Positions 40,268-49,978 of a stretch of DNA of 51,806 bases are shown here, piece after piece. The position numbers and the translations under genes were made by a program. Positions within the stretch are counted from its first letter, which is position 1, and each line of letters starts with the position of its first letter. Source of the DNA: Polyangia bacterium (GTDB lineage: Bacteria; Myxococcota_A; Polyangia; Polyangiales; Sandaracinaceae); assembly GCA_030426845.1 (NCBI GenBank), contig JAUHXR010000020.1, positions 1 to 51,806 of the forward strand. The letters run 5' to 3'. The notes below the pieces were generated by a model. It saw only the letters and a list, made by a program, of their open reading frames with translations. It was not told the DNA's origin and made no database searches.

Positions 40268-40981
40268 TCAGTTGTCGTCGGGGTTCTGGAAGCGGACGCG
40301 TCGCTCGAACCGAGCGAGCGCTTCGACGCCCTCGAGCTCGTCGATCGAGCCGACCGCGGAGCGTTCGCCGGGTGGCGTCACGAGCACGTGGAGCGTCCAG
40401 TCGCCGGGCTCGTCGAAGAGCGCGCCGGCGCGGATCTCCACCCGAGCGCCGCCGCGCGGTCCGCTCACGATCTCGGGGGAGGTCGCCTCGACGAGGCGCC
40501 CTCCTCGGGCGGCGAACACGCGGATCGTGCTGGGCGCCGCGGGCCCATCGGGTCGCGCGACGAGCCGCAGGCGACTGTCGGGGACGAACACCTCGGAGGC
40601 CGGGCCCTCGCCGCGCTCGGTCGCCACCCCGCCGGTCGGCCCCTCCAGCGTGTAGTGACCATCGAGCGCGGGCGCTCCGCCCGCCGGCCACACCATCACC
40701 GCGAGGAGGGCGGCGGCGGCGAGCGACCCCGCGCCCATCGTGACGCGGGCGAGCTGGCGACGCCGACGGCTCCCTCGGAACGCGGCCTCTCCCTGGGCCA
40801 GGGTCGCTTCGCTCACCGGCCGTCGCAGCTCGGCGAGCAGGTCGCGCGCCTCCCGGTTTCGCGCAAGCATCGCCTCGGTCGCCTCGTCGAGCGCGAGCAG
40901 CTTGCCGTCGTCGATCGGCTCCGCGGTCGGCTCGTCGTCGGGGATCGCGCGGAGCAGCGCGTCGAGCTCGTCGTCCGTCAT
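40268..40981 (-). CDS. Single-pass membrane protein, candidate anti-sigma factor
   Basis: 237 residues. The N-terminal 75 residues are acidic and helical (MTDDELDALLRAIPDDE..., LLALDEATEAMLARNREARDLLAELRRPVSEATLAQGEAAFRG), then RRRR and one TM helix (about 80-99, MGAGSLAAAALLAVMVWPA). A 140-residue beta-rich extracytoplasmic domain follows. There is no zinc-finger HxxxCxxC motif, so if it is an anti-sigma factor it is not of the ZAS type. Position between CHAT and subtilase, upstream of an ECF sigma, and topology make this role the best guess. ATG 40981 overlaps the CHAT stop (ATGA); the subtilase starts 14 bases after its stop. Confidence 0.6.
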   Translation of the reverse strand: MTDDELDALLRAIPDDEPTAEPIDDGKLLALDEATEAMLARNREARDLLAELRRPVSEATLAQGEAAFRGSRRRRQLARVTMGAGSLAAAALLAVMVWPAGGAPALDGHYTLEGPTGGVATERGEGPASEVFVPDSRLRLVARPDGPAAPSTIRVFAARGGRLVEATSPEIVSGPRGGARVEIRAGALFDEPGDWTLHVLVTPPGERSAVGSIDELEGVEALARFERRVRFQNPDDN

Positions 40982-43704
40982 CGCGCCGGCTCCGGTCGAC
41001 GCCAGCCCAGCACCCGGAAGCGTCGCCAGCCGCTCGCCCCTGCGGCCTCCGCGGACAGCGCCGCGTCCCGGTAGGCCCGCACCGGCTCGCGCGCGCCGCC
41101 GTGCGCGTAGAACGACTCGATGAAGCGCTGCGCGGCGGCGTCGTCGACGTCGCCGTCGGTCGCGAGCACGCCGCTGGCGCCGAGCGCCACGAAGGCCTCG
41201 GCGAGGCTGATGGGCGCGGTCGCGGTCTCGGCGGTCCGGCAGCCGCTGAGCACCACCACGCCGACGCGCGGGGCGGCCACGAGCAGGTCTTCGAGCGAGA
41301 GCACCTGCCCGCCGGTGAGGTCGAGGTGCGCGTCCCACGCGCCCTCGCCGCGCAGTCGGCCATGACCGGCGAAGTGAAAGAGCGACGAGCCGTCGACGAG
41401 GTCCAGCACCGCGCGCCGCGTCGCCGCGTCCCCGACTACCACGCGCGCCTCGGTGAGCTCGGCCACGCGCGCTCCCTCGGCGCGGGCGTGCGGGAGGTCG
41501 CCGTCGGGGTCCGCGACCACCACGCGCGGGCCCGGGGCGGGCGCGCGCCGCGGCACGCCGGCGTGCGTCAGGTAGGCGATCCCGAACCGCTCCAGCCACG
41601 GCGCGCCGCTCGGATCCTGCGCGCGATGCAGCGCCCGCGCCCCTTCGGCCGCCGCGACGACGTAGAGCGACGTCACCCCCGCCAGGTCGTCGGCGAACGG
41701 CGCGAGCGCGGCGCGCGCGAGCCATCGATGGATCCGCGTCTCGGGCCGGATCACGAAGCCGAGCACGCGATCGCCGACCTGGCTCAGCGAGAGCAGCGCC
41801 TCGTCCGGCTCGAGCGCCTCGGCGACCGCGTCCGGCGACGCGACCTCGATCGAGATCGGCGCGACCCGCTCGAGGTAGCCCTCGATGTCGTTGAAGCGGC
41901 TCGCGAGCGCTCGCCGCTCGACGACCCGCTGCGCGTCGAAGGCCGGCAGCTCGGAGGTAGGCACGAGATCGCGCTCGCTCCGTGAGACCTCGTACCGCGC
42001 GCGCGCGTCGAGGTAGTCGCTCACCAGCGCGTCGAGGCGCTCGCGTCGCGAGGCCGGGAGCGCCTCGAGCCGGAGGCGCGTCTCGAGCTCTCGCTGCGGC
42101 ATCGTGTGGAGGCGCTGGACGACCAGGAACGCGTCCCCCTCGCGGCCGGCCTCCAGGGCCCACCGGGCCGCGGACTCGTAGAGCCGGCGACGGTCCCGCC
42201 GGAACAGGGCGCGCGAGCCCTCCAGGTCGACGTGGGTGGCCAGCGACTCCACCTCGTCGATCGCGGCCAGCGCGTCGTCGGTGGCCCGGTCGAAGCGCCC
42301 GCGCTGCGCGCGCACCTGGGCGCGGCCGAAGCGCGCCCGCCACGCGTACTCGGACCCCACCCCGCCGCCCTCCTGCTCCGCGAGGCGCAGGGCCGAGTCG
42401 AACCGCATCTCAGCCGCGGTGAGCGCCCCCGACGCGAGCGCGATCTGGCCGGCGACGACCTCGGTGAACGGACCGGCGAACGACTCGCGGGCCGGGTCGA
42501 GGCGCTCCAGCTCGCGGAGCAGCGTGAGGGCCCGCTCGTGCCGGCCGTCGAGGTACTCGACCCACACGAGGTTCGCGACGTGGTTGGCCTCGTGCCTCGT
42601 CGAGCCCTGCTGCTGGGCGAGGCGGCGGGCCTCCTCGAACGCCGCGCGCGGCCGCGCGCGATCGACCTCGATGGCCCCCGCCTCCATGGCCTGCAGGAGC
42701 ACCCAGCCCCGATCGTTGACGAAGTGCATCCAGAGCGGCGTGCCCTCCAGCCGCGGCGCGACGCGGTCCAGCGCCTCCACCGCCTCCGCGTGCTGGCCGG
42801 TGCGCGCGAGCAGGGGCGCGCGGGCCTGCGTCGCCAGCGCGGCCTCGACGTCCAGGCCGGAAGCCCAGGCGATCTGCTCCGCCTCGTCCAGCGCGGCCTC
42901 GGCGCGCCGGAGGCTCCCGCGCTCGAGCAGGACGTAGGCCCGGGTCCGCAGCGCCCGCGCGATGCCCTGCGCGTTCCTCGTCTCGCGGTCGAGCGCCTCG
43001 GCGCGATCGAGGCGACGGAGCGCGTCGTCGAAGCGCCGGGCGTACAAGGCCTGGTGCGCCGCGGCGCGGAGGCCCCTCGACGCCTCGGTCGGGACACCCG
43101 CGCTCGTCGCGGCCTCGGCCACGCGGTCCCACGCCGCGATCGCCGCGCTGACGTCCCCCTGGCTTTGCGCGACGCGCGCCAGCTCGACCCGCGCGGCGAC
43201 GCGCGCCCGCGGCGAGAGGCGCTCCAGCGCTCCCTCGAGGAGGGCCTGCCGTCGCTCATCGGACGCGCTCTCGAGGCGCGCGCGGAGCTCCTCGGGGAGG
43301 GGGGCCGGGTCCGCCAGGCGGAACGACGCGCGGACTCGCCCCTCGGCGTCGCGGACCTCGAGCCGATCGCCCGCCGGCGCAGACTCGAGCTCCACGCGCA
43401 TCAGGCGGTAGCGGCCTCGCTCCTCCTCACGCGCGACCGTCAGGTCGAGGCCGGCGTCCCCCCGCGCGATCTGCAGGGACAGTGGCTCGGCCGACCGCGG
43501 GACGCGCACGACGAGCTCGGCGCCGAGCACCACCGCGAGGCCGTCCCCGCCGTCGACGACCCGCTGCTCGTAGCCGAACAGCTCGGCGTCGATCGGGGGC
43601 GCGGCGCGACGGTCAGCCGGCCGATCGCAGCCCGCGACGCCGACGATCAGGCAACAGACAGCGCGGGCAGCGCGCGTGCGCGCAGCGGTGAGAGGAGCGG
43701 CCAC
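40978..43704 (-). CDS. TPR-CHAT caspase-like protease lipoprotein
   Basis: 908 residues from GTG 43704. Signal peptide ARAVCCLIVGVAGC with lipobox VAGC, so an envelope lipoprotein rather than the usual cytoplasmic CHAT protein. A short beta-rich part is followed by about ten TPR-like helical repeats (about residues 150-540). A C-terminal CHAT domain (about 600-900) has the catalytic His781 in LFHFAGHGRLRGE and Cys822 in VVLSGCRTAE, followed by SLAEAFVALGASGVLAT. The His-Cys dyad is intact, so peptidase activity is expected. TPR-CHAT proteins are activated by partner binding. First gene of the operon with anti-sigma-like, subtilase and ECF sigma genes. Confidence 0.88.
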   Translation of the reverse strand: MAAPLTAARTRAARAVCCLIVGVAGCDRPADRRAAPPIDAELFGYEQRVVDGGDGLAVVLGAELVVRVPRSAEPLSLQIARGDAGLDLTVAREEERGRYRLMRVELESAPAGDRLEVRDAEGRVRASFRLADPAPLPEELRARLESASDERRQALLEGALERLSPRARVAARVELARVAQSQGDVSAAIAAWDRVAEAATSAGVPTEASRGLRAAAHQALYARRFDDALRRLDRAEALDRETRNAQGIARALRTRAYVLLERGSLRRAEAALDEAEQIAWASGLDVEAALATQARAPLLARTGQHAEAVEALDRVAPRLEGTPLWMHFVNDRGWVLLQAMEAGAIEVDRARPRAAFEEARRLAQQQGSTRHEANHVANLVWVEYLDGRHERALTLLRELERLDPARESFAGPFTEVVAGQIALASGALTAAEMRFDSALRLAEQEGGGVGSEYAWRARFGRAQVRAQRGRFDRATDDALAAIDEVESLATHVDLEGSRALFRRDRRRLYESAARWALEAGREGDAFLVVQRLHTMPQRELETRLRLEALPASRRERLDALVSDYLDARARYEVSRSERDLVPTSELPAFDAQRVVERRALASRFNDIEGYLERVAPISIEVASPDAVAEALEPDEALLSLSQVGDRVLGFVIRPETRIHRWLARAALAPFADDLAGVTSLYVVAAAEGARALHRAQDPSGAPWLERFGIAYLTHAGVPRRAPAPGPRVVVADPDGDLPHARAEGARVAELTEARVVVGDAATRRAVLDLVDGSSLFHFAGHGRLRGEGAWDAHLDLTGGQVLSLEDLLVAAPRVGVVVLSGCRTAETATAPISLAEAFVALGASGVLATDGDVDDAAAQRFIESFYAHGGAREPVRAYRDAALSAEAAGASGWRRFRVLGWRRPEPAR

Positions 43705-43716
43705 GGTACGAGTTAT

Positions 43717-43750
43717 TACTCGAACCGCTCGGGGCGCCTTTTCGCAAACC
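43717..43750 (-). promoter_or_regulatory. Candidate ECF promoter of CHAT operon
   Basis: On the minus strand GGTTTGCGAAAAG is followed after 12 bases by GTTCGAGTA (43725-43717), about 13 bases before the GTG of the CHAT gene. AAAAG-N12-GTTCGAGTA recurs in the opposite direction at 43801-43826. Two conserved blocks whose centres are about one and a half to two helix turns apart fit the -35 and -10 of an ECF sigma factor. Confidence 0.6.
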
Positions 43751-43800
43751 CGAAAAAAAGTCGGACGGGAACGCGCGGTTGGCCTGGCGCGCGCTCGTGA

Positions 43801-43826
43801 AAAGTCGCGGCCCATCGTTCGAGTAC
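43801..43826 (+). promoter_or_regulatory. Candidate ECF promoter of the matrixin operon
   Basis: AAAAG (43801-43805), 12 bases, then GTTCGAGTA (43818-43826), the same bipartite element and spacing as on the other strand. It lies 80 bases before the ATG of the lipoprotein gene, leaving a leader with an AGGAG ribosome binding site. Confidence 0.6.
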
Positions 43827-43906: not shown

Positions 43907-44500
43907 ATGAAGAGTCACAAGCCCCTGAGTCACCCGCGCCGATGGGTGGCCCTGATCTCGGTCATGCTGTCGATCGGCTGCTCGGCGGGGGGCGTGCCCG
44001 CGGGCAGCACCACGAGCGCGGTGGAGGAGGCGGAGACGATCGAGCGCACCTCGATCACTCCGACGACCCCGGCGGAGCTCGCCATCAGCCGCGTCGAGGG
44101 GTTCGACCTCGAGCTGTACGCCCAGCGCGCCGACTTCGTCCTGCTCGGCCACGTCTCCGAGGCGCGCGCGCAGCGCGTCGTCTACCCGACGGGCGACGTG
44201 CGCGTCGAGACGCAGTTCACGATCCGCACCGAGGAGGCGTTCGCGGGTGAGCCGGAGGAGGAGCTGATCCTCACCGTCCGGGGCGGCGAGGTCGACGGCG
44301 TCCGCTCCAGCGTCTCGCACGCGGCCGAGCTGGCGATCGAGGACGACGTACTGCTCTTCGTCACGCGCGGCCCGACCCAGGATCGCGTGCTGGGCGGCGC
44401 GCAGGGCGCGCTCCTCGTCCGCGAGGGCATGATCGTGGCGACCGGTGAAGAGGTCGCGACCTTCGCGGAAGCGGTCATCAACGCGCGGGAGGGGGCGTGA
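43907..44500 (+). CDS. Lipoprotein paired with matrixin protease
   Basis: 197 residues. Signal peptide with lipobox SIGC (Cys25), then a beta-rich domain with FVLLGHVSEARAQRVVYPTGDVRVETQFTI, ELILTVRGGEVDGVRSSVSHAAEL, DVLLFVTRG and VLGGAQGALLVREG. Proteins of this pattern (ending in a G-x-A-Q-G strand) are commonly encoded directly before a matrixin-type protease in deltaproteobacteria, as here. It might be an inhibitor, chaperone or anchor of the protease; this is inference. The ATG has AGGAGAG just before it. The stop overlaps the matrixin ATG (TGATG). Confidence 0.7.
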   Translation: MKSHKPLSHPRRWVALISVMLSIGCSAGGVPAGSTTSAVEEAETIERTSITPTTPAELAISRVEGFDLELYAQRADFVLLGHVSEARAQRVVYPTGDVRVETQFTIRTEEAFAGEPEEELILTVRGGEVDGVRSSVSHAAELAIEDDVLLFVTRGPTQDRVLGGAQGALLVREGMIVATGEEVATFAEAVINAREGA

Positions 44501-47400
44501 TGAGTCGCTCCACGCGCATCGCGGCGCTCGTGATCGCCGCGCTCGTCGGGCTCCCGCTGGCCGGGGCGTCCGCGTTCACCCTCGACCGGCGCTGGCACAC
44601 CGGCGTGGTCGAGTACCACATCAACAACCAGGGCTTCCGCGGCTCCACGCTCCCGACCTCCGTTCAGAGCGCGGCCATCGAGGGCGGCGCGGACGAGTGG
44701 CAGTTCGAGGGCTGCTCGCCGTTCCAGTTCAACCGGCTGGGCGCCACGACGACCCGGATCGACAACGACGGTCGCAACGTCGTCCTCGTGCCCGAGATCT
44801 CCTCGCTGCCCGCCAACGCGCTCGCGCAGACGACGCAGCGGTTCCGTTCCGACGACCCGGAGCGGCTCATCGAGTTCGACATGGAGTTCAACCAGCACTT
44901 CGTGGTCGGCGTGCCCGGCAACGGGACGGTGATGAGCGGCGGCGGCATCGCCTTCGGCAACATGACGGGCTCGGGCTCCGAGGTGGTGCTCTCGGCGCTC
45001 GACAACGTCCATCCTGGCCTCGACTACTGGCGGGTCACCTTCGGTACGAGCTGCCAGAACGGCTGCTCGTTCGTGACGCCGGCGAACATCCCCGCGGGCG
45101 GCACCCACCTGGCCTCGAGCGCGGTGGCGCTCGGTGAGCTCGACACCGGGGCGTTCGGTCAGGAGACCGTGCTCAGCGCGATCGATCGCTTCGACGGCGG
45201 GACCGACTACTGGCGCGTCCGCGCGCTCCGGTCCTGCGGCACCGACCCGTCGACGTGCGTCCGCTCGCCGATCCTTCAGGTGCACCCGCCCGGGGTGAAC
45301 CGGATGACCGGCGGCGGCGTTGCGGTGGCCAACGTGTTCGGCAACTCCAAGCCAGAGATCTTCCTCCTCGGCGTGGAGGAGGTCGACGGCGGGCTCGACA
45401 ACTGGATCCTGGCGGTCCTTACCGACTGCGACGCGTCGCTGAGCTGCGCGGCTCAGAACTTCCACACCATTCCGACGCAAGGGACGGTTGTCACGGGCGG
45501 CGGGATCGCCGTCGGCGAGCTCGATGGCACTCCGGGCCTGGAGATCCTCATCGCCGGAATCGACAACTTCGACGAGGGCCACGACTACTGGCGTGCCAAC
45601 GTGGTCGAGTGCACGAATGGCGCGGTCTGCACCGCGGGCACCACCATCATCCAGGTCGGCTCCGGCGGGACGACCCTCACCGGGGGCGGCGTCGCGATCG
45701 GCAACGTCGACGGCGACTCGGACAACGAGGTGATGCTGGGCGCGATCGACGTCTGGGAGGGCCTGGACTACTGGCGCGTGGCCCGGCTCGACGACGACTG
45801 CTTCGACACCGCCCCCGGCTGCAGCACGGAGATCACCCAGGTCCCCGGCGGCGGCTCGGTGATGAGCGGCGGCGGGGTGATGCTCGCCGATCTCGACGCC
45901 TCGGGGACCCCCGAGCTCGTCCTGAGCGGCATCGACAACTACGAGGACGGGCTCGACTACTGGCGGGTCGCCTTCGGCCGCGACTGCGACGGGGGGGTCT
46001 GTCCGATCGGGCGCGCCTTCTCGACGAGCGGCGCCCCGGGCACGACGGACATCCAGTCCGTCGCCGCGCACGAGTTCGGACACGCCGCCGGTCTCAATCA
46101 CACGGCCGCGGTGCCCTCCGCGGTCATGACGTGCAGCATCGGGACGGGCATGCAGCGGCGTGATCTCACCTGCGACGACGTGCACGGGCTCCAGCAGCTC
46201 TACTCGACGTCGTCGGTCTGCCCCAACTTCGGCAAGGTGCAGACCCTGAGCACCGGCCTGGCCGACGCGGAGGGCGGACACGCGGTGGCGGTTGATCTCG
46301 GCGGATCCACGCACGGCGTGATGACCATCGCGGTCGAGCGCGGCGTGCCGAACCCTCGCTGGGCCATCGGCGTCGGGAGCGGCTGCAGCACGGTCACCGG
46401 GGAGTGCAGCTGGGCCCCCGCTCAGCGGATCCAGTCGGAGGCGGAGGCGCTGTCGAGCCCGAGCATCGCGGTCGGCCGCTTCGACGGTGACGCGGACGAC
46501 GACGTCATCATCTCCGCGATCTCGACCGAGGCGGACGGAACCCAGGGCGTCCGCTACCGGATCGGCACGGAGTGCAAGTCCACGGGCTGCGAGTGGGGTG
46601 ACGAGCACTTCAGGCCGCTGACGGGCGCGTCGCACCCGCTCACCGGCGGCGGCGTCGCCGTCGGTCGGGTCGTCGACGACGGCTCGGAGCGGCCGCAGGT
46701 GGTGATCGCGGCCATCGAGCGGCGCCCCGGCGCGCCGGACCAGTGGGTCTACGAGATCGGGATCGCGTGCGGCGCTGACGACTGCGTCTTCTCGGGCTTC
46801 CCGCAGAACGTCTCGTCCGGGGTCGATGACCTCGTCGGCGGCGGCGTGGACATCGGCTCGCTCGACACCAGCGGCACCGAGGAGGTGGTGCTGGCGGGGA
46901 TCCGGACCGATCCGCTCGACTCCGACGACTGGGTGGTGGCGATCCTCCGGGACTGCAGCACCAACAGCTGCGTCTCCCCGTCGGCGCCGTTCACGGTCTC
47001 CGCGGCGGAGAACGGGCCGGCGATGATGTGCGGGGCCTCGCGTGGTCAGCTCCTCTCCGACGCGGCGGGCACGATGCGTGGCGGCGGCGTCTACGTCGGC
47101 GACCTGAGCGGCGGTCCGGAGGACGAGATCCTCATCAGCGGCATCGACGCTGGCGACGACCATCACTTCTATCGCCACGTGCTGCTGTCGAACTGCGACG
47201 TCGGCGTGCAGACCTGCCCCGCGCCTACCGCGGCGCGGGTCACCTCGAGCGGCGCGGCCGGGCTCAGCGGGGGCGGCATCACCGCGCGGCGGGTCGACGG
47301 CGACCTGGACTACGACGCGGTCCTCGTCGGCCTCGACACGGCGGGCCCGAGCGGCGCGTACTGGCGCGTGCGTAACCGGGTCGACCCCTGCGGGCTCTGA
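44500..47400 (+). CDS. Matrixin-type metalloprotease split by tandem repeats
   Basis: 966 residues. A signal peptide (AALVIAALVGLPLAGASA) is followed by the first half of a matrixin catalytic domain (RRWHTGVVEYHINNQGF ... LIEFDMEFN, residues 27-133). Then come six repeats of about 62 residues (134-510), each with GGGxAxG..., an acidic D..G.xEhxLxxID core, and LDYWRV. The domain then resumes with DIQSVAAHEFGHAAGLNHT (zinc ligands His524, His528, His534) and the Met-turn SAVMTC. Six more repeats (about 570-960) follow. The repeats resemble VCBS/FG-GAP propeller blades. ATG 44500 overlaps the stop of the preceding lipoprotein gene; GTG 44497 is also possible. It should be a secreted zinc endopeptidase if the split domain folds. 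Confidence 0.85.
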   Translation: MSRSTRIAALVIAALVGLPLAGASAFTLDRRWHTGVVEYHINNQGFRGSTLPTSVQSAAIEGGADEWQFEGCSPFQFNRLGATTTRIDNDGRNVVLVPEISSLPANALAQTTQRFRSDDPERLIEFDMEFNQHFVVGVPGNGTVMSGGGIAFGNMTGSGSEVVLSALDNVHPGLDYWRVTFGTSCQNGCSFVTPANIPAGGTHLASSAVALGELDTGAFGQETVLSAIDRFDGGTDYWRVRALRSCGTDPSTCVRSPILQVHPPGVNRMTGGGVAVANVFGNSKPEIFLLGVEEVDGGLDNWILAVLTDCDASLSCAAQNFHTIPTQGTVVTGGGIAVGELDGTPGLEILIAGIDNFDEGHDYWRANVVECTNGAVCTAGTTIIQVGSGGTTLTGGGVAIGNVDGDSDNEVMLGAIDVWEGLDYWRVARLDDDCFDTAPGCSTEITQVPGGGSVMSGGGVMLADLDASGTPELVLSGIDNYEDGLDYWRVAFGRDCDGGVCPIGRAFSTSGAPGTTDIQSVAAHEFGHAAGLNHTAAVPSAVMTCSIGTGMQRRDLTCDDVHGLQQLYSTSSVCPNFGKVQTLSTGLADAEGGHAVAVDLGGSTHGVMTIAVERGVPNPRWAIGVGSGCSTVTGECSWAPAQRIQSEAEALSSPSIAVGRFDGDADDDVIISAISTEADGTQGVRYRIGTECKSTGCEWGDEHFRPLTGASHPLTGGGVAVGRVVDDGSERPQVVIAAIERRPGAPDQWVYEIGIACGADDCVFSGFPQNVSSGVDDLVGGGVDIGSLDTSGTEEVVLAGIRTDPLDSDDWVVAILRDCSTNSCVSPSAPFTVSAAENGPAMMCGASRGQLLSDAAGTMRGGGVYVGDLSGGPEDEILISGIDAGDDHHFYRHVLLSNCDVGVQTCPAPTAARVTSSGAAGLSGGGITARRVDGDLDYDAVLVGLDTAGPSGAYWRVRNRVDPCGL

Positions 47401-47490: not shown

Positions 47491-48909
47491 TCAGCTCCAG
47501 AGGTCGTGCGCGAGCCGGTCGACCATCGCGACGGCGGCGTCGGCCGTGGGGAGCCCGGCGACCTCGACGAGGGCCGGGTCGTGGGTCCGGGCCGCCTCGT
47601 CGCGCAGCGCCACGATCGCCTCGCGGCGGGCCTCCTCGACGCGGGCGCGATCGGCCTCGCTCAGGCGCGGCTCGAGCCAGCCCGCGAGGGCCCACGACAG
47701 CTCGGCGTGGCGCAGCTCGTCGTCGGCGACCTCACGCATCGCGGCTCGGATCTCCGGGTCGCGCGCGGCGTCGGCCTGGTAGGCCCCGAGGAGGGCGCCG
47801 AAGGTCTCGCGCACGCAGCCCTCGACCGCGTTCTCGAGCGCGATGTCGAGCGCGCTCCGGCCCTCGATCGGGTCGAAGGTGCTCGTGCCCGGCTCCGCGC
47901 CGTAGCGCCGCGCGATCGCCCCCATCGACGCGGTGTGGCGGACCTCGTCCTCGCGCGCGGCCCGGGCCGCGTCGATCAGCGCGGGCGGCGCGCCGAGGCC
48001 GGTGAGCTCGTCGATCATCACGTCGAAGGCGTCCACCGCGCTCGCCTCGAGGACCGCGATCTGAGCGAAGAACGCGCCGACCGGGTCGCTCGCGCGGCCC
48101 GGGGCGTCGGCCCGCAGGCCAGCCGGTCGGCGGCCCACGCAGCCGAAGTCCTCCTCCTCGCGGATGACCTCGGAGGACTCCTCGGTGACCGCGCCGCTCG
48201 ACTCGACCCGCACCGTGTGGCGGGTGGTCACCCACGGCGTGCCGCAGCCGCCGGACTGGCGGTAGCCGACGACGCGCCAGCCCCCGGGGATCTGGGTGAC
48301 GCTCGTCGGGTCGGTCTCCGAGCACCAGATGTCGTAGCCGGCCCGCCACGCGACGAGCGCCGCCTCGTGGGCGGTGTCGATCGGGCCGAGGAGCCCGAGC
48401 AGCTCCGCCTCCTCCTCGAGCGCGTCGACCGCGTCGCCGGTCTGGGTGAGGAGCGCGCGTTGGTAGGTCGTCTGCTCGAGCTCGGTGATCGCGGCCACAC
48501 ACGCGGGCGTGTCGGTCGCGTCGGCGCAGCGCTCGCCTCGCTCGACAGTGATCTGCGGGATCCCGCCGGGGACGCTCTCGATCTGACCGATCCAGCTCGG
48601 GTCGCGGGTCAGGGTCAGGCCGTCGAGGGCCTGCCACCGACCGTCCGTCGAGCAGAGCCCGGGGGGCGGCGGCGGCGGCGGCGGGCCCGCGTCGAAGCCG
48701 GCCGCGTCGATCTCGCCCGCGTCGGGGATCGAGCCCGCGTCCACCGAGGTGTGCGACGTGTTGCAGCCCGCGACCACGGCGGCCGCGACGGAGGCCTGGG
48801 CGAGCCGGCGCAGGTACGGGCCGAGGCGGAACCCGAGCGTCGAAGTGATCAAGGCGTCGAGCTCGGCGCGGGCGGGGGTGGGGCGGTCGAAGGGGCGTCG
48901 GATCGTCAT
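47491..48909 (-). CDS. Ferritin-like diiron domain lipoprotein
   Basis: 472 residues from ATG 48909. Signal peptide with lipobox VVAGC (Cys49), DAG/Pro linker, then a middle region of unknown fold with cysteines. The C-terminal about 220 residues form a four-helix ferritin-like bundle with two E-x-x-H type half-motifs: EASAVDAFDVMIDEL with EDEVRHTASM, and ENAVEGCVRETF with DELRHAELSW. These are the diiron ligands expected for ferritin-like oxidases. Export of a ferritin-like domain is unusual; it may use iron or oxygen at the cell surface. No neighbour tells its substrate. Divergent from gshB. Confidence 0.78.
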   Translation of the reverse strand: MTIRRPFDRPTPARAELDALITSTLGFRLGPYLRRLAQASVAAAVVAGCNTSHTSVDAGSIPDAGEIDAAGFDAGPPPPPPPPGLCSTDGRWQALDGLTLTRDPSWIGQIESVPGGIPQITVERGERCADATDTPACVAAITELEQTTYQRALLTQTGDAVDALEEEAELLGLLGPIDTAHEAALVAWRAGYDIWCSETDPTSVTQIPGGWRVVGYRQSGGCGTPWVTTRHTVRVESSGAVTEESSEVIREEEDFGCVGRRPAGLRADAPGRASDPVGAFFAQIAVLEASAVDAFDVMIDELTGLGAPPALIDAARAAREDEVRHTASMGAIARRYGAEPGTSTFDPIEGRSALDIALENAVEGCVRETFGALLGAYQADAARDPEIRAAMREVADDELRHAELSWALAGWLEPRLSEADRARVEEARREAIVALRDEAARTHDPALVEVAGLPTADAAVAMVDRLAHDLWS

Positions 48910-49039
48910 GCCACGGACCAGAGCGAAGGGTGTGCCAGCGCCAACGAGCGGCACGCCGTGCTCGAGCGCTTGGCCAAACTGTGCCGTCGGACCCGGGTGC
49001 GACTTGCCCGGTCCGGCCGGCTGCTCCACATGGGCGGGG

Positions 49040-49978
49040 ATGCGCATCCTCTTCGTCATGGACCCCGTGTCGACCGTCCTCGTGGACGAGGACACCTCCT
49101 TCGCCCTGATGCTCGAGGCCCAGAACCGAGGGCACGCGGTCGAGCACTGCCTGCTCCGCGACCTCTTCGTCGACGGCGACCACGTCGGGGCCCGCGCCCG
49201 CGCCGCGACCTGTCAGCGCGACCCGGCCGAGCCGATCACCCTCGGCGAGCCGCGCGACCTCGATCTGCGGGCCGACGTGGACTGCGTCTTCATGCGCAAG
49301 GACCCGCCGTTCGACGTGCCGTACCTCTGGGCCTGCCAGGTCCTCGAGCACGCGCGCGGCGACACCCTGCTCATCAACGACCCGCGCGGGCTCCGCGACG
49401 CCAACGAGAAGATCTACGCGACCTACTTTCCCGAGCTGATGCCGGCCACGCTGATCAGCAGCGACAAGGAGCGCATCAAGGCGTTCGTCGCGCGCCACGG
49501 CGGGCGCGGCGTGATCAAGCCGCTCGGGATGATGGGCGGCCACGGGGTCTTCCTGATGAAGGAGGGCGACCCGAACCTGAACGCGACCATCGAGACGACC
49601 ACCGTCGGCGGCACCACCCTCGCGATGGCCCAGGAGTTCCTCCCGTCGATCAAGGACGGCGACAAGCGCATCCTGCTGCTCGACGGCGAGTACCTCGGCT
49701 CGATCAACCGGGTCGCCCAGGGCGGCGACCTGCGCAGCAACATCCACGTCGGCGGCCGGGTCGAGGGCGCGGACCTGAGCGAGGACGACCGCCGGATCGT
49801 CGAGGCGCTCGCCCCGCGGCTCAAGGCGGACGGGCTCGTCTTCGTCGGCCTCGACGTGATCGGCGGCCGGCTCACCGAGGTGAACGTCACGAGCCCGACC
49901 GGGATCCAGCAGGCCTCGCGGATCAGCGGGCAGAACCTCGAGGCGAAGGTCCTCGAGTGGATCGAGCGCGCGGTGTGA
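49040..49978 (+). CDS. gshB: Glutathione synthetase
   Basis: 312-residue ATP-grasp enzyme that ligates gamma-glutamylcysteine and glycine. Markers: the N-terminal MRILFVMDPV, the FMRKDPPFDVPYLWA loop, NDPRGLRDANEK, GVIKPLGMMGGHGVF (ATP-grasp lid), GEYLGSINRVAQGGDLRSNIHVGG, and GLDVIGGRLTEVNVTSPTG near the end. All are typical of bacterial GshB. gshA is not in the window. It overlaps the next gene by GTGA, so they are read together. A secreted gamma-glutamyltransferase is encoded at 34812. Confidence 0.95.
   Translation: MRILFVMDPVSTVLVDEDTSFALMLEAQNRGHAVEHCLLRDLFVDGDHVGARARAATCQRDPAEPITLGEPRDLDLRADVDCVFMRKDPPFDVPYLWACQVLEHARGDTLLINDPRGLRDANEKIYATYFPELMPATLISSDKERIKAFVARHGGRGVIKPLGMMGGHGVFLMKEGDPNLNATIETTTVGGTTLAMAQEFLPSIKDGDKRILLLDGEYLGSINRVAQGGDLRSNIHVGGRVEGADLSEDDRRIVEALAPRLKADGLVFVGLDVIGGRLTEVNVTSPTGIQQASRISGQNLEAKVLEWIERAV

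Follow-up and report, generated by a model that had tools for sequence, protein, structure and literature searches.

A matrixin metalloprotease with a predicted six-bladed FG-GAP-like beta-propeller inserted in its catalytic domain, from a Polyangia bacterium

The locus described here raises the question whether the catalytic domain of a matrixin can be carried by two separate stretches of one chain, and what the repeats lying between these stretches are and do. The window (the whole stretch of DNA that was analysed, 51,806 nucleotides; contig JAUHXR010000020.1 of assembly GCA_030426845.1, Sandaracinaceae) contains an intact open frame at 44497-47400 (+), with an ATG at 44500 and a product of 966 aa, a zinc metalloprotease of the matrixin (M10) type that is probably secreted. 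Read by eye, the protein runs in the order signal peptide, matrixin-like N part up to LIEFDMEFNQH, six repeats, FSTSGAPGTTDIQSVAAHEFGHAAGLNH with the Met-turn, and six further repeats. No second copy of the gene was found in its own genome. The features referred to below are as follows.

43907-44500 (+): partner gene, 197 aa, with a signal/lipoprotein-like N terminus (translation)
44500-47400 (+): whole protease gene, 966 aa plus stop (open frame)
44500-44577 (+): probable signal peptide, residues 1-26, MSRSTRIAALVIAALVGLPLAGASAF (sequence read by eye, without a predictor)
44590-44898 (+): N half of the matrixin catalytic domain, residues 31-133 (matrixin profile, shuffle control)
44899-46011 (+): inserted segment (residues 134-504) made up of a closing strand and repeats R1-R6; predicted propeller A (repeats, AlphaFold2, matches to six-bladed propellers)
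44932-45108 (+): repeat R1, residues 145-203 (repeat profile)
45109-45303 (+): repeat R2, residues 204-268 (repeat profile)
45304-45489 (+): repeat R3, residues 269-330 (repeat profile)
45490-45675 (+): repeat R4, residues 331-392 (repeat profile)
45676-45861 (+): repeat R5, residues 393-454 (repeat profile)
45862-46011 (+): repeat R6, residues 455-504 (repeat profile)
46012-46212 (+): C half of the matrixin catalytic domain, residues 505-571 (matrixin profile; PF00413)
46069-46101 (+): zinc motif HEFGHAAGLNH, residues 524-534 (sequence)
46123-46131 (+): Met-turn VMT, residues 542-544 (sequence)
46213-47397 (+): second array (residues 572-966), in which a spare fourth strand precedes repeats R7-R12; probable propeller B (homology to array A; repeats; closing strand and cysteines)

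A catalytic domain in two stretches of chain

A matrixin profile was made from 52 relatives in genomes of the same order, the window protein being left out. When the window protein was searched with this profile, two pieces were matched: model positions 15-126 on residues 31-133 (11.3 bits) and model positions 128-195 on residues 505-571 (54.0 bits). The two pieces are colinear and a single model position is missing between them, so that the intervening 371 residues form an insertion in an otherwise complete catalytic domain, placed between model positions 126 and 128 and 20 residues before His524. As the N part is the weaker half, it was tested in isolation against 20,000 shuffles of itself, and scored 18.5 bits against 14.4 bits for the top shuffle; uninserted relatives from metagenomic contigs align to it through the same elements, e.g. 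SPFQFNRLGATTTRIDN-DGRNVVLV against APFVYNYAGRATDSVVAFDGRNLLFF. MAFFT, applied to the full protein together with uninserted matrixins, misplaced the N half inside the repeats, and the two-piece profile match was used instead for this reason. At the level of sequence, residues 31-133 and 505-571 together make up the catalytic domain.

The C half carries the zinc motif HExxHxxGxxH as HEFGHAAGLNH, and the Met-turn is present as SAVMTCS (Met543). Pfam family PF00413 is matched by the C half only (residues 513-568; 43.2 bits against a cut-off of 24; E 5e-11), and the cut-off of NCBIfam NF041905 (MXAN_2677/MXAN_2678 metalloprotease) is missed (35.2 bits against 250).

The first-pass annotation had taken residues 27-133 to be matrixin-like, which agrees with the placing of residues 31-133 directly ahead of the C half in the profile, and had put about 380 residues between the strand LIEFDMEFN (residues 123-131) and HEFGHAAGLNH, where 392 are counted. 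The split itself stands; its extents are corrected to an insert of residues 134-504 (371 residues) and halves of residues 31-133 and 505-571. That such an insert is unusual, and not found in most matrixins, is borne out by its occurrence at this place in 0 of the 177 other proteins matched. Altogether 178 proteins match the matrixin profile (some loci were fetched twice), the window protein being the sole split one; in 74 of them the N and C parts form one continuous domain of no more than 211 residues. Ordinary myxobacterial-type matrixins (e.g. the NCBIfam MXAN_2677/2678 family) share the catalytic domain and the upstream partner gene with the window protein, but have a continuous domain, with 20-35 residues where the window protein has its insert; among some 60 other matrixins from the order, this strand and the zinc helix are about 20-35 residues apart. 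Matrixin genes are abundant in the order, with 13 matches in the genome of the window (G000) and up to 19 in a relative.

The inserted propeller and its proposed role

The repeats of the insert (array A) were searched for with a profile trained on the copies of array B and those of another genome, array A being excluded. Exactly six repeats were found, each scoring 33-48 bits where 2,000 shuffles reached about 10 bits at most, and with a spacing of 59-65 residues, matching the six repeats of about 62 residues first read in the insert. AlphaFold2 was run on residues 22-585, with part of array B of the window protein and a few matrixins as alignment rows; the matrixin rows were misplaced in the first alignment (A11), and the second (A13) was selected from numerous combinations of rows because both halves aligned in it as expected. 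Compared with A11, A13 improved the propeller and not the core. Array A is predicted as six blades of up to four strands each (pTM 0.62 and 0.63; pLDDT mostly 60-90), and the second model has a strand at residues 136-139, ahead of repeat 1, in the position of a closing strand.

Top Foldseek matches of the model are mainly six-bladed sialidases and neuraminidases, with one phytase among them. VIA-align gives Z scores of 29.5-29.7 to six-bladed sialidases across both models; for the second model against human Neu2, Z is 29.5 and rmsd 3.1 over 324 residues, covering residues 129-499 or so of the window protein. The sialidases and neuraminidases matched in this comparison are six-bladed propellers; its matches are all propellers, and it is uninformative on the protease core. 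A sialidase function for propeller A was considered and rejected, the likeness being one of fold only, at 5-10% identity. In the models, the insert is a complete six-bladed FG-GAP-like beta-propeller. Like FG-GAP or integrin-type repeats, the repeats of the window protein are about 60 residues long and have a propeller fold (predicted, for array A); unlike these, they carry a cysteine pair each, and propeller A has six blades where integrins have seven (PMC4275582).

With moderate confidence, and largely by analogy, we read the protein as an active secreted matrixin in which the inserted propeller A would serve as a substrate-binding exosite, with array B as a further binding module. Propeller A sits in the loop that joins the strand preceding the active site to the zinc helix; its ends should lie near each other, so that the loop could hold it without disturbing the core, and the two halves would pack into one catalytic core. 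Activity is to be expected, since neither the zinc motif nor the Met-turn is damaged. Propeller A, beside the active-site helix, would bind a large extracellular substrate and offer it to the cleft, and array B would be placed like the hemopexin propeller of MMPs. Points that weigh against this reading are the pLDDT of mostly 25-45 over the core in both AlphaFold2 runs, the modest score of the N half (11 bits in place, 18.5 in isolation) and the occurrence of the split in a single genome.

The analogy is with the gelatinases, which have three fibronectin II repeats inside the catalytic domain that bind collagen and gelatin (PMC4964549; PMC7290391); the insert of MMP-9 is placed around residues Thr190-Gly192 of MMP-3 (PMC8238946). 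In MMP-2 and MMP-9, as in the window protein, the insert lies in the loop before the zinc helix, and since the fibronectin II modules bind substrate from this loop, propeller A would most likely be an exosite as well. Judged by the zinc-ligand numbering of MMP-3, the gelatinase insert lies some ten residues nearer the helix than that of the window protein, within the same loop. The inserts themselves differ, three fibronectin II modules in the gelatinases as against a predicted FG-GAP-like six-bladed propeller in the window protein, in which no Pfam match to fibronectin II was found. Vertebrate gelatinases, moreover, have a prodomain with a cysteine switch, which the window protein lacks (PRCGxPD is absent, and the only cysteine ahead of the insert is Cys72, in EGCSPF), and the C-terminal array of six FG-GAP-like repeats is unlike MMP-2 and MMP-9. 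By this analogy, the window protein looks like an independent route to a built-in substrate grip in such a protease.

A gate over the cleft, admitting only small or unfolded peptides to the zinc, is an unlikely but arguable alternative role for propeller A. Its anatomy is that of prolyl oligopeptidase and oligopeptidase B, in which, as in the window protein, a beta-propeller lies between two parts of the peptidase domain, and in prolyl oligopeptidases it excludes substrates larger than 3 kDa (PMC8533160). The family differs from the window protein in being serine peptidases with an unrelated catalytic domain of alpha/beta-hydrolase fold, and in a propeller that is seven-bladed and of other sequence than propeller A. 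Against a gate, the cleft of matrixins lies open at the surface and their usual substrates are large extracellular proteins; what the gelatinases carry in this loop is, moreover, a module for binding (PMC4964549). A gating matrixin would be a metalloprotease counterpart of prolyl oligopeptidase that evolved independently of it and of the gelatinases, which we regard as improbable to the same degree.

It is less probable still that the protease half is inactive, either because the split core folds poorly or because it is a mere scaffold, so that the protein would be a double-propeller binder. The core was not built as a metzincin in either AlphaFold2 run, with pLDDT mostly 25-45 and only a handful of matrixin rows supplied, and the architecture occurs in one genome only, both of which would fit an inactive core. 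The zinc motif, the Met-turn and the surrounding residues are intact, however, the matrixin profile matches the C half with 54 bits, and GC3 is as high in both halves as in the rest of the gene; these points argue against an inactive protease half.

The second array

With a profile trained without array B, six repeats were found in it, spaced 62-81 residues apart, in line with the earlier count of six more repeats after the Met-turn; the first is degenerate (7 bits, under the best shuffle of 12.5 bits), and the last is partial (20 bits, ending after its third strand). Between arrays A and B, identity is 33% across some 340 residues (E 5e-29). Each array opens with a fourth-strand segment of its own, QHFVVGVPGNGTV before R1 in array A and VCPNFGKVQTLSTG before R7 in array B, and array B breaks off behind its third strand, at Cys964, for which the repeat spacing gives Cys574, ahead of R7, as the partner. 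This pattern of ends is that of a ring closed by strand exchange, perhaps locked in this case by a disulfide. The propeller fold is predicted by the models for A, and from the repeats and their ends array B is probably a second propeller.

Two propellers and one twelve-blade array had both been entertained for the twelve repeats, and two propellers are likelier because array A closes alone and the repeats of array B are preceded by a separate spare fourth strand. A single twelve-bladed ring or continuous array, with the C half of the protease as a loop in it, would suit the homology between the repeats of the two arrays, but is very improbable in view of the closure of array A as six blades in both predictions, the spare strand before each array, and the end of array B at Cys964, paired by position with Cys574. 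Recent copying of the C-terminal array into the loop was also considered and rejected: array A shares 33% identity with array B but as much as 37% with the array found in a genome from another family, and the duplication is therefore not recent.

Distribution of the repeats and genomic setting

The repeats are about 60 residues long, with the core GGGVAVGxLDGDxxxE and a cysteine pair in every copy, which generic FG-GAP-like relatives do not have. The Pfam FG-GAP models match neither array of the window protein at E up to 5, whereas the homologous array of genome G015 (another family of the same order) scores 30.1 bits with FG-GAP_3 (cut-off 26.9), and that of G088, a more distant homologue, likewise lies above this cut-off; the arrays of the window are thus FG-GAP-like and not members of the curated FG-GAP family. 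Judged by these comparisons, the repeats are a divergent FG-GAP-like family.

A search with array A in 317 genomes of the class gave, besides the genome of the window, only G015, G088, G523 and G478; the arrays of the last three are generic FG-GAP-like. The G015 protein (L034:2865-5594, contig C101; 910 aa) has the zincin motif WHEILHTHHYSH, a later CMMN, six copies of the same cysteine-bearing repeat and then a weak PPC match near its end, with no Pfam peptidase match; its repeats follow the HExxH zincin catalytic part and are not inserted in it. A 67-70 residue FG-GAP-like repeat of the HIDNPxGENHGYYRVGW type, without the cysteine pair, was observed in G088, G161 and G523. This repeat of the class looks, from its sequence, like the wider family behind the repeats of the window protein.

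In the genome of the window, the repeats have no second copy at a significant score. A search with the whole protein in 377 genomes of the phylum returned ordinary matrixins only, the best match (G190) being 44% identical over the C half and its domain reading as uninterrupted. No relatives of the protein or the repeats were found in the genome contigs, phage and plasmid collections searched, nor in viral contigs with the repeats as queries, and no second genome with the same split architecture was found among the 317 genomes of the class and 377 of the phylum. In a literature search that covered few subscription papers, no paper pairing VCBS with a matrixin was found.

A misjoin of a matrixin gene and a repeat gene, by assembly or gene model, might be suspected in a draft genome of 538 contigs with an architecture seen once, but is most improbable, since the frame is single, both borders keep the reading frame and the register of the matrixin profile, GC3 is uniform over all four segments (0.93-0.97), no two repeats exceed 75% identity in DNA, and the protease halves complement each other, where a misjoin would not yield a complete domain on both sides.

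The partner gene and the protease gene overlap in TGATG, which holds the stop codon of the former and the start codon of the latter. Homologues of its 105-residue domain, gathered by iterated search among upstream frames, are located upstream of 25 further matrixin genes in the order, and the domain is fused to matrixins in several proteins of other genomes and metagenomic contigs, mostly N-terminally and once C-terminally; it matches no Pfam or NCBIfam family. The partner, perhaps encoded instead of a prodomain, may be a matrixin inhibitor, a folding helper or a prodomain acting in trans. As to the other neighbours, the divergent gene at 40978-43815 (-) encodes a TPR protein with a CHAT (caspase-like) domain (E 1e-21), and the convergent downstream gene at 47491-49095 (-) a secreted-looking protein with a weak rubrerythrin/ferritin-like match under the Pfam cut-off.

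Within the material searched, the architecture is new; the principle of an inserted binding module is already known, MMP-2 and MMP-9 with their fibronectin II modules in the same loop being the precedent. The loop before the zinc helix of matrixins takes a complete folded domain in bacteria too, and one unrelated to the kind found in gelatinases. If the propeller binds substrate, a grip beside the active site would have arisen twice in one protease family. The split matrixin also makes the loop tolerance of the metzincin core directly testable.
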